Source: Aquisphaera giovannonii (lineage in GTDB: Bacteria > Planctomycetota > Planctomycetia > Isosphaerales > Isosphaeraceae). Taken from it: DNA of 64,000 nucleotides. Below, piece by piece: positions 42,146 through 48,846 of the stretch (the first letter of the stretch is position 1; each line of letters opens with the position of its first letter). The position numbers and the translations under genes were made by a program. The stretch is from the NCBI RefSeq assembly GCF_008087625.1, contig NZ_CP042997.1:3100001-3164000 (forward strand), read 5' to 3'. The notes under the pieces were generated by a model that had not been told where the DNA came from, searched no databases, and was given only the letters and a program-made list of their open reading frames with translations.

Positions 42146-43387
42146 TCACAGCCTCAGGTAGAAATTGTGCTTCTCGAGGTAGCGGACGAAGGAGTAGCTG
42201 ATCGCGAAGAAGACGGCCGTGCCCATCAGGCAGTACCAGAGCGGGGAATCCTTCGGAACCACCGCGAGGACCGCCCCTTCGACCGCGTGGTGCAGGATGT
42301 ACGCCGCGAGCGGGTTCTGCCCGAGCGTTCGGAATAGCCCCAGGCGGAAACCGCGAATGTCGCACAGGGGGATGAACAGTGCGTACAGGGCCAGCGAGAA
42401 TCCGGACGAGAAGAGGCTGAACGGTAGGCTCACCACCTTCTTGTTCATCTCCCAGTAGTTGTCGGGCCGGATCTCGCGTGGCGGCGGGGTCATGAACGGG
42501 GGCGTGGCGAGGAGGGACTGGAACGAGCGTCCCTGGAAGTTGCCGAAGGGAGGGATGACGGGGCTCGCCGCGACGTCCTTGCCCAGGACCTCGACCGTCC
42601 CCTTGTCGGTATCGTAGAGCGTCGCGGCGCAGTTGGAGGCGTACCCGACGAGCATGAGCGCCGCACCCAGCCCCACTTGGAGACCGGCTGCCCGGCCCGG
42701 CGACCGGGTCATCATCCAGTCGTAGGACAGGCTCCCGAAGAGCATCGGTACGGCCCACGCCATGATGCCGAAGAAGCCCCCGTCCCATGCCGACTTACCG
42801 GTCAGGCCCAGCAGCTCGTCCAGCCAGTTGGGCTGGCCGTAGACGAAGAAGAAGTTGAACCACTGGGAGATCGCCACGTGGGTCGCCAGGCACGCGGCGA
42901 TCGTCCCGATGCGCACCTTCGTGCCCCTCGCGATGACCGGCATGAGGAACATCTGGGTCACGCCGATGATGGCCAGCGTCTCCCACAGGTTGGCCTTCAG
43001 CGTCTCGGCGAGGGACTTCCAGAGGCCCGTGCCCTCGAGCTCCGCCCAGCGCCTCACCTCGCAGTCCTCGGCGGCGTACATCACCAGGGAGACCAGGACG
43101 AGCATCAGGCTGCGGACGAAGAATTTGCCATAAGCGGCCGCGGGGCCGTCTCGCTCCAGGCGCCGGAGGACGGCCAGCCGATACGAGAAGCCGGCCGCGA
43201 ACATGAAGCCGGGCATGATCGTGTCGGCATAGCTGAAATAGATATTGTGATGCTTCAGCACCGCCGGCATGGCCGTCAGCCCGCCGACGAAGTTGACGAG
43301 GAACATCCCGGCGACCGTGTACCCGCGGAACTGGTCCATCGACGCGATCCGCCCGCTCTTCACCGGGGAGATGGGGACGTCTTCCAT
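42146..43387 (-). CDS. DUF5009-type acyltransferase-like membrane protein
   Basis: About 413 residues from the ATG at 43387, with about 10-11 hydrophobic segments. The N-terminal block [20 protein letters not shown] and a following NFVGG are those of the heparan-alpha-glucosaminide N-acetyltransferase/DUF5009 family, with the later motif [16 protein letters not shown]. Members are inner-membrane enzymes thought to transfer acetyl groups from acetyl-CoA to sugar amines across the membrane. The histidine of the second half fits the family. Its promoter holds a palindrome between -35 and -10. It is read away from the racemase operon. Confidence 0.75.
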
Positions 43388-43461
43388 GGGGAGGCTGCCT
43401 CGATCGGGAGTCGTCGGATCGTCTTCGGCGTCCGGCGGACATCGCCGGGATGGGAACCGAG

Positions 43462-43490
43462 AGGGTAATCGCGACAACTGTCGCGGTCAA
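43462..43490 (-). promoter_or_regulatory. promoter of the DUF5009 gene
   Basis: On the minus strand TTGACC (43490-43485) and TACCCT (43467-43462) are separated by 17 bases. The start codon follows at 43387. The spacer is filled by a palindrome (separate entry). Confidence 0.45.
43470..43485. promoter_or_regulatory. candidate operator CGCGACA-AC-TGTCGCG
   Basis: A perfect 7-bp inverted repeat with a two-base centre. It fills the spacer between the -35 and -10 boxes of the DUF5009 promoter, the classic position for a dimeric repressor. It is also 126 bases upstream of the racemase operon start. Confidence 0.45.
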
Positions 43491-43610: not shown

Positions 43611-44735
43611 ATGCAGATTGATCGGATCGAGCTCCGCCTCGCCCGGCTGCCGCTGATCCGGCCCTTCCGGACCAGCTCCAGCCGGAAGGACCACCTCGAC
43701 CACATCCTCGTCCGGGCCATCATGGCGGACGGAGTCGAGGGCTGGGGGGAGTGCGCGAGCCCTTCCGACCCGTTCTACTGCCCCGAGACCGTGGAGACCT
43801 GCTGGCACGTCCTCCACGATTTCCTCGCCCCCATGACCCTCGCGCGGGAGTGGTCCACGATCGAGGAACTGACCGGGTTCTACCGCCTCGTGAAGGGGAA
43901 CGCGTTCGCGAGGTCTGGCCTGGAGATGGCCTGCTGGGACGCCCTCGCCCGGACCCATGGCAGGCCGCTCAGCGAAGTCCTGGGCGGCACGCGGCCCGAG
44001 GTCCTCTCCGGCGTCAGCCTCGGCATCGAGGAGGACGTCGAGGCCCTCTACGACCGCATCGACCAGTTCGTGGCGGAAGGCTACCGCCGGGTGAAGTTGA
44101 AGATCGCCCCCGGCTGGGACGTGGAGGTCGTCCGGAAGGTCCGCGGGCGCTACCCGGACCTGCCGCTCCAGGTGGACGCGAACTCGGCCTACACTCTGGA
44201 CGACCTGCCCACCCTCAAGCAGCTCGACGAGTTCGACCTGCTCCTGATCGAGCAGCCGCTCGCGCACGACGACATCATCGACCACGTGCAGCTCCAGCGG
44301 ACGATCCGGACCCCGGTCTGTTTGGACGAGAGCATCCACTCCGCGGCCGACGCGAGGAAGGCGATCGACATCGGGGCCTGCAAGGTGATCAACATCAAGG
44401 TCAGCCGCGTGGGCGGGCCCCAGGAGGCCAGGCGCGTGCACGACGCCTGCGCGGCGAGGGGCATACCCGTCTGGTGCGGCGGCATGCACGAGTTCGGCAT
44501 CGGCCGGGCGGCGAACCTGGCGGTCGCCAGCCTCCCGGGGTTCAGCCTCCCGGGCGACGTCTCCGGCTCCGACAAGTATTACCGGCACGACCTCGTCGAG
44601 CCGCCCATCCTGGCGACGCGGGGGGCGATCCCCGTCCGGCAGGCGCCCGGGCTGGGGGTCGATCCGGTCATGGAACGCATCGAGAAGGCCACACTCCGGG
44701 CCGCCGTCCTGTCGGCCGGCCCGAGCAGAGGATGA
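43611..44735 (+). CDS. N-succinylamino acid racemase / o-succinylbenzoate synthase family enzyme
   Basis: 374 residues. Enolase-superfamily enzyme of the MLE/OSBS subgroup with all five catalytic residues in place: K162 and K164 (RVKLKI), D189 (QVDAN), E214 (LIEQP), D239 (CLDES) and K263 (INIKVS). The spacing matches the N-succinylamino acid racemase branch, in which the two lysines on opposite faces racemise the alpha carbon of N-acylated amino acids. Most members also have o-succinylbenzoate synthase activity, but no menaquinone gene is nearby. The next two genes encode an M20 peptidase and a GNAT acyltransferase, so the racemase role in D- to L-amino acid conversion is preferred. The reading starts at ATG 43611. 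Confidence 0.8.
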   Translation: MQIDRIELRLARLPLIRPFRTSSSRKDHLDHILVRAIMADGVEGWGECASPSDPFYCPETVETCWHVLHDFLAPMTLAREWSTIEELTGFYRLVKGNAFARSGLEMACWDALARTHGRPLSEVLGGTRPEVLSGVSLGIEEDVEALYDRIDQFVAEGYRRVKLKIAPGWDVEVVRKVRGRYPDLPLQVDANSAYTLDDLPTLKQLDEFDLLLIEQPLAHDDIIDHVQLQRTIRTPVCLDESIHSAADARKAIDIGACKVINIKVSRVGGPQEARRVHDACAARGIPVWCGGMHEFGIGRAANLAVASLPGFSLPGDVSGSDKYYRHDLVEPPILATRGAIPVRQAPGLGVDPVMERIEKATLRAAVLSAGPSRG

Positions 44736-44741
44736 CCCCGC

Positions 44742-45881
44742 ATGGACCTCCCGGCAATCCCCGCCGCGATGCGATCGAAGGAGTCGTCGATCGTGACCGA
44801 ACTGTGCGAGATGGCCGAGGTGGAGACGCCCACCGAAGGCAAGGTCGCCGTCGACCGGCTGGGCGGACGCGTCGCGGCGCGGTGGCGAACCCTCGGCGGC
44901 CGGGTGGAGGTCGTCGCCAACGACCGCGGCGGCGACCACATCCTCGGCCGATTCTTCGAAGGCGTCCCGGGCATGCCGGCCCTGGTGCTCGGGCACATCG
45001 ACACCGTCTGGCCGTTGGGCACGCTCCGCACGATGCCGCTCCGCCGCGAGGGCGGACGCCTCCACGGCCCGGGCGTCTATGACATGAAGGCGGGCCTGGC
45101 CCTGTTCCATGCCGCCCTGGAATGGTTCCGCGAGTCGGGAACCCAGCCGGCGAGGCCGATCCTCGCGCTGTTCACCTCGGATGAGGAGACCGGCAGCCCG
45201 ACATCCCGCGCGCTCATCGAGGAATGCGCAGGCGGAGTCGCGCATGCCCTGGTGCTCGAGCCGCCGCTGGCCGACGGCGGCCTCAAGACGGGTCGGAAAG
45301 GCGTGGGACGGTTCGCGATCGAGGTCCGGGGCAAGGCGGCCCACGCGGGGGTGGCCCCGGAGCAGGGGGCCAGCGCCATCCTCGAGCTCGCGCACCAGGT
45401 CATCCGGGCTCATGGGCTGAACGACCCGGAAGCGGGGACCACCGTGACGGTGGGCCTCGCGAGCGGCGGGACCGCGGTGAACGTGGTCCCCGCGTCCGCG
45501 ACGGCCCGGGTGGACGTGCGAGCGACGACGCTCGCGGCGGCGGCGACTCTCGAACGCACCATCCTCGCCTTCGGGCCGATCACCCCGGGGACGGAGGTCC
45601 GCGTCACGGGGGGCTTCAACCGTCCCCCGATGGAGCGGAGCCCGGCCATCGCGGCGCTCTTCGGCCGGGCGAGGGACATCGCCGGCGAAATCGGGCTGTC
45701 GCTCGGCGAAGGCTCGACCGGCGGAGGCAGCGACGGTAACTTCACGGCCGCGATGGGCGTCCCGACGCTGGACGGCCTGGGAGCCCGGGGCGGGGGCGCG
45801 CACGCCGACCACGAGCACGTCGAGATATCCTCCCTGTCCGAACGCGCCGCGCTGCTGACGGCCCTGCTCCTCAAGCTGTGA
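44742..45881 (+). CDS. M20-family metallopeptidase, probable N-succinyl-L-amino acid desuccinylase
   Basis: 379 residues, six bases after the racemase stop. Two zinc sites are readable: LGHIDTVW (ligand His, catalytic Asp), GPGVYDMKAG (bridging Asp), TSDEETGS (catalytic Glu and ligand Glu), VLEPPL and the final HADHEHVEI. The dimerisation domain runs from about residue 180 to 290 (GRKGVGRFAIEVRGKAAHAG). It resembles carboxypeptidase G2. By context it should hydrolyse N-succinyl- (or other N-acyl-) L-amino acids to give the free amino acid, drawing the racemase equilibrium toward L. A plain glutamate carboxypeptidase is the alternative. Confidence 0.75.
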   Translation: MDLPAIPAAMRSKESSIVTELCEMAEVETPTEGKVAVDRLGGRVAARWRTLGGRVEVVANDRGGDHILGRFFEGVPGMPALVLGHIDTVWPLGTLRTMPLRREGGRLHGPGVYDMKAGLALFHAALEWFRESGTQPARPILALFTSDEETGSPTSRALIEECAGGVAHALVLEPPLADGGLKTGRKGVGRFAIEVRGKAAHAGVAPEQGASAILELAHQVIRAHGLNDPEAGTTVTVGLASGGTAVNVVPASATARVDVRATTLAAAATLERTILAFGPITPGTEVRVTGGFNRPPMERSPAIAALFGRARDIAGEIGLSLGEGSTGGGSDGNFTAAMGVPTLDGLGARGGGAHADHEHVEISSLSERAALLTALLLKL

Positions 45882-45892
45882 GGCCCCCGACC

Positions 45893-46783
45893 ATGACCGC
45901 GACCCGGGCGAGCGTGAACGCGGAAGAGATCGTGCAGCAGATCGAGCTCGAGCCGGACGTCACCATCCGGCGCGCGGCGAGCCCTGCGGATTACCGGGAG
46001 TGCCAGGAGGCCCAGCGTGCGGCCTGGGGGGTCAAGGACAACGGCTACCTCGTGCCCATCGCGACGATGGTGGGAGCCAACCTGCACGGGGGGATCGTCC
46101 TGGGCGCGTTTCTCCCCGACGGCCGGGCTGTCGGCATGTCGTTCGGCTTCCTCGGAGTCGTCGGCGACAGGGTCGCCCTCTACTCCCAGCTCACCGGCGT
46201 CGTCCCCCAGTATCAGTCCAGGGGCGTCGGGTACGCCCTGAAGATGGTCCAGAAATACATCGCGCTGGCGGAGGGGGTGGAGTTGATCGCCTGGGCCTTC
46301 GACCCGCTCCAGGCGGGGAATGCGCACTTCAACCTGGAACGCCTGGGGGCGCGGGTCTGCCGCTACATCGACGACATGTACGGGCCCCGGACGGACGCCC
46401 TCAACGCCGGGGCGCCCACGGACCGGGTGATCGCCGAGTGGGAGATTGGCCCCAAGGCCGCGCCCCGCAGGCCGGTCCCCGTCGGAGTCGCCGCGCACCT
46501 TCCGCGGCTGATCGAGGTCTCGAGGAGGAGGGACGGGCTCCGCGTCCCCGCCTCGTACCGGCCGGCCCCCCACGCGCCGACAGTCCTCCTCGAGCTCCCT
46601 CGGCGAATCGCCGAGCTCCGCCGCGATCAGCCAGATCTCGCCGAAGGCTGGCGCCGGGCCGTCCGCGAGGCGTTCCTGGCCTCGCTCGAGGCCGGCTATG
46701 AGGCCGTCGGCCTCTTCCGCGAGACGGACGGCGCGGAGCGTCACGACTATTACGTCCTCGACCGCAGGAAGCCGGGGGGCTGA
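45893..46783 (+). CDS. GNAT-family acyltransferase, probable D-amino acid N-succinyltransferase
   Basis: About 296 residues from the ATG at 45893, with GAGG nine bases upstream; a GTG overlapping the previous stop is the alternative. The acetyl-CoA site is read in QSRGVGYALKMVQKYIALAE (the Q/R-x-x-G-x-G/A pattern), preceded by the beta strand VALYSQLTGVVPQYQ. This long GNAT form (COG3375-like) is typically found beside N-succinylamino acid racemase genes. By context it would load a succinyl group from succinyl-CoA onto D-amino acids as the first step. The last third is an extra domain without a known role. Confidence 0.7.
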   Translation: MTATRASVNAEEIVQQIELEPDVTIRRAASPADYRECQEAQRAAWGVKDNGYLVPIATMVGANLHGGIVLGAFLPDGRAVGMSFGFLGVVGDRVALYSQLTGVVPQYQSRGVGYALKMVQKYIALAEGVELIAWAFDPLQAGNAHFNLERLGARVCRYIDDMYGPRTDALNAGAPTDRVIAEWEIGPKAAPRRPVPVGVAAHLPRLIEVSRRRDGLRVPASYRPAPHAPTVLLELPRRIAELRRDQPDLAEGWRRAVREAFLASLEAGYEAVGLFRETDGAERHDYYVLDRRKPGG

Positions 46784-46855: not shown

Positions 46856-47635
46856 ATGCAACATCCGTCGCCCGAGACCGGCCGCTACGCGAACCTCCGC
46901 CGGGGCGGAGCCGGCCTGGGCCGGTTAGCCGCCTGGCTGCCGATCGGGTTCGTGCTGCTGGGCGCGGGGCTCTTCCTGGACCAGGCGCGTGACCTCGTGT
47001 CGGACGGCCAGTTCACCACGGGCGAGCGGAGGGTGATGGGGATCATCGCGCTGGTCACATTCAGCGGTAGCGTCCTCGCCGGCTGGATCCTCAGCCGCCT
47101 CTTCCGGACGCTGGCCGGTGTCCTGGAGGTCCTCGCCGACTCGGCGGAGGCGTCCTGGCGCACGGGCGACTTGATCGAGCAGCACCTGGTGCCCACGCTC
47201 GGCCGCATCGCCCTGGCGGTCGAGGAATCGCACCCCGCGGCCGCGCAGCCGGCCGACGACCGCGCCGAAGTGGCCCGGCGCCCGCAGGCCCTGATCGCCG
47301 AGCTCGACCGTGCGAAGGCGGCCGGGCGGGCGGGGCGGGCCGTCGAGCTGCGCGACGCCCTGACCCGCCACCTCCGCGGCGAGGCCCTACACCGCCTGGA
47401 CCGGGACCTCGCCCTCTGGCTGCTGAGGCTGGTGGAGGCCCGGGTGCAATCGGATGCCGTGGACGTCGAGCTCGCCGACTGGGTCGCCCGGGCGGTCGAC
47501 AGCCTCGGCGACATGCCCGAGGCCGAGCCGCTCCGGCGGGCGCTCCCCGCCCTCCAGCGTCGAGCGGAGCAGAGGGCCGGTCGGCAGGCCGCCGGCCACT
47601 CGCGCAGGACTTCCACGAACCGGGGCCAGCCATGA
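46856..47635 (+). CDS. membrane protein of unknown function, two N-terminal membrane segments
   Basis: 259 residues. Two hydrophobic segments near residues 20-42 (LAAWLPIGFVLLGAGLFLD) and 62-82 (GIIALVTFSGSVLAGWIL) are followed by a soluble part of about 170 residues with helix-forming Arg/Ala/Leu-rich sequence (ALTRHLRGEALHRLDRDLAL). No known domain. It overlaps the start of the next gene by four bases (ATGA), which means the two products are made together. Confidence 0.6.
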   Translation: MQHPSPETGRYANLRRGGAGLGRLAAWLPIGFVLLGAGLFLDQARDLVSDGQFTTGERRVMGIIALVTFSGSVLAGWILSRLFRTLAGVLEVLADSAEASWRTGDLIEQHLVPTLGRIALAVEESHPAAAQPADDRAEVARRPQALIAELDRAKAAGRAGRAVELRDALTRHLRGEALHRLDRDLALWLLRLVEARVQSDAVDVELADWVARAVDSLGDMPEAEPLRRALPALQRRAEQRAGRQAAGHSRRTSTNRGQP

Positions 47636-48836
47636 GCCTTCGCGTCCGCTGCACGTCCTGCCGCACCGCGTTCCTGTCCCCGGACGAGCCACCGGGCGGG
47701 ATCGCGGAATGCCCAAAGTGCGGGGCCCGACATCGCCTGGCGTCGCCGCAGGCCGCTCCCCCGCCGCTCGCGGGAGACGGGCCGGCCGTCCCCGTCCCGC
47801 CGTCGGCGGCCTCCGAGGTCGAGCAGCCCGCCGACGCCGGAGCCCGTACGGTCTTCGTCCCGTCCGCGGAATCGCGCGAGCGGTCCGGCCGCCGGCGATG
47901 GCTAATCCTCCTGGCCATCCCGGCACTCGTCCTGCCCATCGCGGCGGCCGTCCTGGTGGCCTGGCCGCGCCTGGGGCCCCGGCCCGTCGGCGCCGTCGAG
48001 CGGGTCGCGGACCAGTACCTGCACGCCATCGCGAAGGACGAAGAGACCGCTCAGCGGAAGCTGAGCACCGTCGAAGATCCCCCCGCGATCCGCTCGTACC
48101 GGGAGGTCCGCCGGGACAGGAGGGCGGACCGGACCGTCAAGGGATCGTTCGCCCCCATCGGTCGCCTGCACGCGAAGATCGCGGCGAGCTACGCATACGA
48201 CCCGTCGATCGGCCGGTTCACGCCGAAGAATCCGCTCGGCGCGGCGGGCGAGACCCTGGACGCCGTGCAGGCCGCCAGGGAGAACGTGGAGAAGTCCGGC
48301 CTGTACGACAAGATGAAGAGCGGCGACCCCGACGACATCTTCGACGCGGCCGAGGGGCTGGGGCAAGTGTTCAGCCAGCTTGCGCAGGGGGCAGTCTCCC
48401 CGAAGAGGGTCCTCCCCACGTACAAGACGCTCGTGGACGACGCGAAGCCGCCGCTGCCGAAGGATGCGAAAGAGCTCGCGGACGCCGTCGGGGAGGATCC
48501 GAAGTCCTGGGACGCCCTACTGGGCCGTCGCTTCGTTGACCTCAAGGCCGACGGCCCGTTCATCCTCGACCGCGCCGAGGTCGAGGCGCAGGCCGAGGAC
48601 CGGCTCTCGTCCCTGGGCGACCCGCCGACGCCGCTGCGGCTGTCCCTCGTCCGCTTCCGACTCGAAGGCATCGACACAGGCTGGCGCGTCGTGGCGATCC
48701 GCCGCGTCCTGCCGGGCGACGAGTCCGGCATGCAGCCTGGGGCGACCACCGCCTCGCCCGGCGCCGAGCCGGGGGTGCCGCCCGCTGACACGCGTCCCCC
48801 GGCGCGTTACAATCCACCCGGGCAGGACGCCCCATC

Positions 48837-48846
<10 letters not shown>
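47632..48846 (+). CDS. zinc-ribbon membrane protein of unknown function
   Basis: 404 residues. The N-terminus has a zinc ribbon with CTSC and CPKC (about residues 7-35), resembling the MJ0042-type finger. A Pro/Ala linker and a single membrane segment (LILLAIPALVLPIAAAVLVA, near residues 91-110) follow. About 270 residues of extracytoplasmic sequence follow, mostly helix and a Pro-rich tail. The start overlaps the preceding gene. The tRNA-Val promoter lies within the last 60 bases, and the TAG stop at 48844-48846 is inside the tRNA gene itself. Confidence 0.6.
48785..48813 (+). promoter_or_regulatory. promoter of tRNA-Val inside the upstream coding region
   Basis: CTGACA at 48785-48790, a 17-base spacer, TACAAT at 48808-48813, both one base off consensus. 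The start would be near 48820, 17 bases before the tRNA. The bases also encode the C-terminal tail of the zinc-ribbon protein. Confidence 0.6.

Follow-up and report, generated by a model that had tools for sequence, protein, structure and literature searches.

A racemase, M20 hydrolase and GNAT operon of Aquisphaera giovannonii and other Isosphaeraceae: a predicted route from D- to L-amino acids

Described systems and the Aquisphaera operon

Geobacillus kaustophilus reportedly has a pathway, attributed to Sakai et al. 2006, that is made up of an N-succinylamino acid racemase (NSAR), an M20 hydrolase, and a GNAT succinyltransferase. The Geobacillus paper of Sakai et al. is cited by title in PMC8762209, and G. 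kaustophilus NSAR/L-succinylase tandems yield L-amino acids (PMC7431475). We analyzed a stretch of 64,000 nucleotides (the window) from the genome of Aquisphaera giovannonii, a member of the Isosphaeraceae with 10.5 Mb on three contigs, in which a racemase, an M20 metallohydrolase, and a long GNAT-type acyltransferase are encoded one after the other at positions 43,611 to 46,783. The nearest named relative that turned up, in a single-protein scan, is Aquisphaera insulae JC669, which is assigned to the same genus and has a GNAT of 79% identity. The three protein types are those of the Geobacillus pathway, and their chemistry would presumably be the same. Plasmid-borne trios of Lysinibacillus and Priestia have a like make-up, and these Bacillaceae trios were used as stand-ins for the G. 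kaustophilus genes in our comparisons.

A first-pass annotation, made from the letters of the DNA, had read the locus as a complete pathway for converting D- to L-amino acids. Our analysis leads to the same prediction from sequence, with the three genes linked at 34 of 34 loci, the racemase and GNAT co-occurring across genomes, and a MenC role of the first gene excluded. We consider it likely that the operon encodes a three-step D-to-L pathway with succinyl as the most probable acyl group. The GNAT would acylate a D-amino acid at its amino group, most likely with succinyl taken from succinyl-CoA. The racemase would then interconvert the N-acyl-D- and N-acyl-L-amino acids, as suggested by its intact catalytic residues and by a characterized enzyme of 51% identity; K164 and K263 would serve as opposed acid/base lysines, with D189, E214, and D239 binding a divalent metal. 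To our knowledge, free amino acids are not substrates of NSAR-type racemases. The zinc-dependent M20 enzyme would deacylate only the L-form, and this would make the route irreversible and give it its D-to-L direction. The racemase step is the firmest of the three, and the donor and stereo-preference of the GNAT are the weakest elements. Succinyl is favored as the most likely acyl group because of the analogy with the Geobacillus pathway of Sakai et al. 2006.

The pathway type is already known. What is new here is its standing as a core operon in Isosphaeraceae, the exclusion of an o-succinylbenzoate synthase (OSBS) role at the level of whole genomes, a signature of pocket residues in the racemase, and a hydrolase of the carboxypeptidase G2 (CPG2) type in common with actinobacterial copies of the system. 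A search of the open-licence literature, with subscription journals outside its scope, found no earlier description in planctomycetes.

The three proteins and their families

The first protein matches MR_MLE_N/C in Pfam, passes the menC model TIGR01928 (346.6 bits; cut-off 200.65), and fails TIGR02534. Among solved structures it is closest to 1sja, the Amycolatopsis N-acylamino acid racemase (E 2.5e-110, 50.6% identity), and to variants of that enzyme, followed by Deinococcus and Thermus racemases. A dipeptide epimerase or muconate cycloisomerase identity was ruled out by far lower scores, the best muconate cycloisomerase match having an E of 4.8e-32. Aligned to 1sja, the Aquisphaera protein has K162, K164, D189, N191, E214, D239, K263, and R266, and its K-x-K motif, D-E-D metal ligands, and opposing lysine all stand at positions conserved in NSAR/OSBS proteins. 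The five catalytic residues named in the first-pass annotation are therefore exact in position, but residues alone cannot tell an NSAR from an OSBS, since the OSBS chains 1wue and 1wuf carry the same set. R266, a second-shell residue that we take to be important for NSAR activity, does not discriminate either; it occurs in the racemase, in the OSBS chains, and in every other aligned row, and was dropped as an NSAR marker.

Phylogenetic analysis of 74 proteins placed the Isosphaeraceae racemases in one clade (support 100/100), with a weakly supported sister group (86/62) of actinobacterial racemases that includes 1sja and a Streptomyces plasmid protein. These actinobacterial racemases are also the ones accompanied by a CPG2-like M20. 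The Listeria (1wuf) and Enterococcus (1wue) OSBS chains, with 39-43% identity, share the fold, the catalytic residues, and the NCBIfam model with the Aquisphaera racemase but are placed in a separate region of the tree. The comparison with characterized enzymes that had been proposed in the first pass thus groups the first gene, weakly, with the Amycolatopsis racemase and apart from the Listeria and Enterococcus OSBS. Two further sets of relatives were seen. A planctomycete clade of 38-42% identity (L165-L172, family f2 of the same class), with D at position 135 and W at position 19, sits apart in the tree; it is found without GNAT in genomes without MenB, beside HSP70-like, DUF1501, and ceramidase-like genes, and has its menC label from the model. 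Outside the window, the Aquisphaera genome itself encodes a second NSAR/OSBS-like paralogue of 37% identity on the - strand (G000:C1:2944424-2945530; L006:742-1995). This paralogue, which is found in about a dozen Isosphaeraceae genomes, passes TIGR01928 although its K-x-K positions align with R-x-R, and it is unlikely to be a racemase that works in the usual way.

The second protein matches Peptidase_M20 and M20_dimer in Pfam and carboxypeptidase G2 (1cg2) with an E of 1.6e-45. The claim that it is an M20 peptidase with both zinc sites is borne out by the alignment to CPG2, in which every zinc ligand and the catalytic Glu are kept (H85, D87, D114, E148, E149, E173, and H354) and R294 is the equivalent of CPG2 R324. 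In place of CPG2 K208, which we presume to contact the glutamate substrate, the Aquisphaera enzyme has G180, at a position that varies within the family. Given this replacement and the presumed role of the lysine, a broader side-chain tolerance of the Aquisphaera enzyme is possible. The Isosphaeraceae and actinobacterial trios have CPG2-like M20 proteins, in contrast to the Bacillaceae trios, whose M20 belongs to the aminoacylase/amidohydrolase branch (TIGR01891) and is, by BLAST, essentially unrelated to that of Aquisphaera. Gene order differs as well, M20-GNAT-racemase in the Bacillaceae and racemase-M20-GNAT in Aquisphaera. The earlier equation of the locus with the G. kaustophilus trio accordingly holds for the linkage of a racemase to a GNAT and an M20 but fails for the branch to which the M20 belongs.

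The third protein has no Pfam or NCBIfam match of its own. Several of its homologs pass the cut-off of Acetyltransf_1 (PF00583), and homologs in Deinococcus, Streptomyces, Lysinibacillus, and others are annotated as GNAT beside menC. The family conserves W139-x-F-D-P-L, N148, N152, Y168, and T181-D182-R183, together with a glycine motif of the form Q-x-x-G-x-G/A (QSRGVG at 113-118) that resembles those binding acyl-CoA. The first-pass assignment as a long GNAT transferase is consistent with this motif and with the homologs. Comparison of its sequence with solved structures returned nothing meaningful, and an AlphaFold2 model built from two sequences was not used (pLDDT 41.5). Judged by the conserved residues, all three genes of the operon appear intact.

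We compared the sequences of 34 Isosphaeraceae racemases with those of 32 other NSAR/OSBS members. Only four alignment columns are fixed in all 34 and nearly absent in the other 32, namely S23, H31, H293, and F295, where 1sja has F23, L31, I293, and T295. The conserved E294 lies between H293 and F295, giving GGMHEF in Isosphaeraceae versus GG[ML][LIVF]E[STA] in the others. At position 293, 1sja has I where the engineered chain 5fjp has G, and positions 291 and 323 also differ between these two chains; a G291D/F323Y variant is named as an improved racemase (PMC4823265, PMC7431475). With four family-specific residues in the pocket, the substrate preference of the Isosphaeraceae racemase may be shifted relative to other NSARs, and these four invariant residues are direct targets for mutagenesis.

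Conservation within and beyond Isosphaeraceae

Among 45 Isosphaeraceae genomes, the GNAT is present in 40 and the racemase (at least 59% identity) and the M20 in 39 each. G255, G257, G266, and G269 are without all three genes, G255 having only a racemase paralogue of 38% identity; the other discrepancies come from incomplete assemblies, with genes fragmentary or cut off at contig ends, G278, G286, and G287 having pieces of the trio. At all 34 loci with the three genes inside the fetched stretch, they run in the order racemase-M20-GNAT and share a strand, with gaps mostly under about 120 bases. A chance arrangement is excluded because every intact locus keeps this order and strand, and the trio is a family-wide core operon of Isosphaeraceae that is not special to one genome. 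This makes a predicted pathway for recovering D-amino acids part of the core genome of a family in which D-amino acid metabolism has been little studied. In the near-complete genome G254 (L100), about 0.9 Mb separates the racemase (G254:C2:1856386-1857504) from the M20-GNAT pair, so all three genes can be kept when the operon is broken.

In a sample of 244 genomes from the phylum, with the racemase counted at E<1e-90, 22 have the racemase and all 22 also have the GNAT, which occurs alone in one further genome (Fisher p 2e-30, uncorrected for relatedness). Of the 20 loci read from other planctomycete families, 9 have the two genes side by side, and CPG2-like M20 proteins elsewhere in the phylum are mostly in genomes without the racemase. 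Strong linkage of racemase and GNAT recurs not only in other planctomycetes but also in Deinococcota, Actinomycetota, Bacillota, and Pseudomonadota. The pair is carried on plasmids in Deinococcus, Lysinibacillus (with an aminoacylase-type M20), Priestia, Arthrobacter and Streptomyces (both with a CPG2-like M20), Stenotrophomonas, and Sulfitobacter. Cytobacillus has an M20 and a racemase, with no GNAT annotated in its partial gene table. On the Streptomyces plasmid, a racemase 96% identical to the Amycolatopsis enzyme is directly beside a GNAT of the same family as in Aquisphaera and a CPG2-like M20 that is 49% identical to the Aquisphaera M20 over 318 aa, in the order M20-GNAT-racemase rather than racemase-M20-GNAT.

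Clusters of this kind in other phyla are found next to family-3 amino acid binding proteins, a POT peptide transporter, an ABC peptide-type importer, MurR/RpiR regulators, and serine hydrolases resembling beta-lactamases or penicillin-binding proteins. These neighbors point to the uptake and use of peptides or other material containing D-residues. One such cluster, on Deinococcus radiodurans MP1 (L134), has the racemase beside the GNAT; after the racemase comes an amino acid binding protein annotated as two overlapping pieces. Its racemase is 66% identical to the crystallized D. radiodurans racemase (2ggg); identity with that enzyme is ruled out, and the MP1 protein is a paralogue.

Menaquinone synthesis and other competing explanations

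The menC label that NCBI gives the first gene corresponds to a reading in which it is the OSBS of menaquinone synthesis and the M20 and GNAT are chance neighbors. The TIGR01928 score and the catalytic residues in common with the Listeria and Enterococcus OSBS chains agree with such a role. However, MenB and MenD exceed their curated cut-offs in none of the 45 Isosphaeraceae genomes, compared with 7 of 14 control genomes in which both pass, while MqnC of the futalosine route passes in 42 of the 45. In the phylum sample, a MenB match at E<1e-70 was found in only 2 of the 22 genomes with racemase and GNAT. TIGR01928, although called an "equivalog" model, also passes the Deinococcus MP1 paralogue, the Amycolatopsis-like Streptomyces protein, and the R-x-R paralogue of Aquisphaera itself, and a label shared by such varied relatives does not discriminate. 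Among five planctomycetes, Zhi et al. 2014 (PMC3914697) recorded MenC in 4, MenB and MenF in none, and MqnA/C/D in all, a pattern that fits misassigned racemases or relatives of them. We find the OSBS reading barely credible and reject the role at the genome level; the menC label is a misannotation, since MenB and MenD stay below cut-off throughout the family and MqnC does not. The first-pass argument against this role, drawn from the lack of menaquinone genes nearby, is in this way extended to entire genomes, and its concern that the racemase might be a MenC serving only menaquinone synthesis finds no backing in genome content or tree position. This corrects a family-wide misannotation, in which planctomycetes that use the futalosine route carry MenC/OSBS labels. 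In other bacteria the question of what NSARs act on is blurred by NSAR/OSBS double function. With OSBS function irrelevant in Isosphaeraceae, the racemase function is the only one under selection, and the vertical, near-universal conservation of the operon makes the family a natural system for asking about the physiological substrate of NSAR.

Several observations weigh against the three-step pathway with succinyl. The Aquisphaera M20 is on another branch than that of the Bacillaceae trios, with BLAST identity in short stretches only, so that orthology gives no ground for assigning it L-N-succinyl hydrolysis, and the racemase pocket departs from every compared NSAR at its four family-specific positions. 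Neither type of M20 was next to the GNAT-racemase pair in the loci read from other planctomycete families. The acyl donor and stereo-preference of the GNAT cannot be read from its sequence, and the case in planctomycetes is built on sequences, the biochemistry coming from other bacteria. Some of these points would also fit the same three steps with a different acyl group (acetyl, formyl, or another dicarboxylic acyl) and a natural intermediate other than an N-succinyl compound. The Isosphaeraceae-specific S23, H31, H293, and F295, the change of position 293 in engineered 5fjp relative to 1sja, a hydrolase that is CPG2-like and not aminoacylase-like, and the promiscuity of NSARs for N-acetyl, N-carbamoyl, and N-formyl substrates (PMC7431475, PMC8142540) are consistent with this. 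Position 293 may, however, touch the side chain instead of the acyl group, and many NSARs with different residues there prefer N-succinyl substrates; we regard another acyl group as unlikely. Much less probable still is that the operon salvages racemic N-acylamino acids from outside, with the GNAT as a detoxifying acetyltransferase or as an enzyme that stores L-amino acids in N-acyl form. The M20 branch does include hydrolases of the N-acyl-L-glutamate type (CPG2), and the GNAT is far from any solved structure, but across phyla no gene accompanies the racemase as constantly as the GNAT does, the M20 included, which argues that acylation belongs to the pathway. We tentatively entertain, as a possibility less probable than the general three-step pathway, a variant in which loss of the 20s-loop aromatic residue (S23), in combination with H31, H293, and F295, adapts the pocket either to one particular N-acyl group or to a D-amino acid of polar or acidic character, such as one set free from peptidoglycan. 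The operon would then be a distinct route devoted to D-amino acid recovery, now a core function of Isosphaeraceae.

Coordinates and flanking genes

The three open reading frames are confirmed on the + strand (Table 1), and the 6- and 11-base gaps given in the first pass hold if the GNAT begins at ATG 45893. The alternative start, GTG 45878, would give a protein of 301 aa and share 4 bases with the M20 stop codon.

Table 1. Positions in the window of the operon genes and of the Isosphaeraceae-specific racemase codons
Feature	Position	Strand	Basis
Predicted N-acyl(succinyl)amino acid racemase (enolase superfamily, NSAR/OSBS subfamily), 374 aa; annotated menC	43611..44735	+	MR_MLE_N/C, TIGR01928, likeness to 1sja, catalytic residues
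Codon of racemase S23 (20s loop)	43677..43679	+	fixed in 34/34 Isosphaeraceae; F in 27/32 other NSAR/OSBS proteins
Codon of racemase H31, Isosphaeraceae-specific	43701..43703	+	fixed in 34/34; others carry a different residue
Codons of racemase H293-E294-F295 (GGMHEF motif)	44487..44495	+	H293 and F295 fixed in 34/34 Isosphaeraceae, 0/32 others
M20 metallohydrolase, carboxypeptidase-G2-like, 379 aa; proposed N-acyl-L-amino acid hydrolase	44742..45881	+	Peptidase_M20 and M20_dimer, 1cg2 match, zinc and catalytic residues
Long GNAT-type acyltransferase, 296 aa; proposed acyl-CoA:D-amino acid N-acyltransferase	45893..46783	+	homologs pass PF00583 and are annotated GNAT beside menC

The conserved unit is the trio; no conserved neighbors were found outside it at these loci, and the flanking genes are not conserved. 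Upstream, a divergent gene on the - strand (42146-43477) has a weak match to HGSNAT_cat (heparan-alpha-glucosaminide N-acetyltransferase), barely over the cut-off, and related open reading frames are near the trio in 16 loci. Directly 3' of the operon are two + strand genes of unknown family (46856-48846), which are kept with the trio in only 11 Isosphaeraceae loci.

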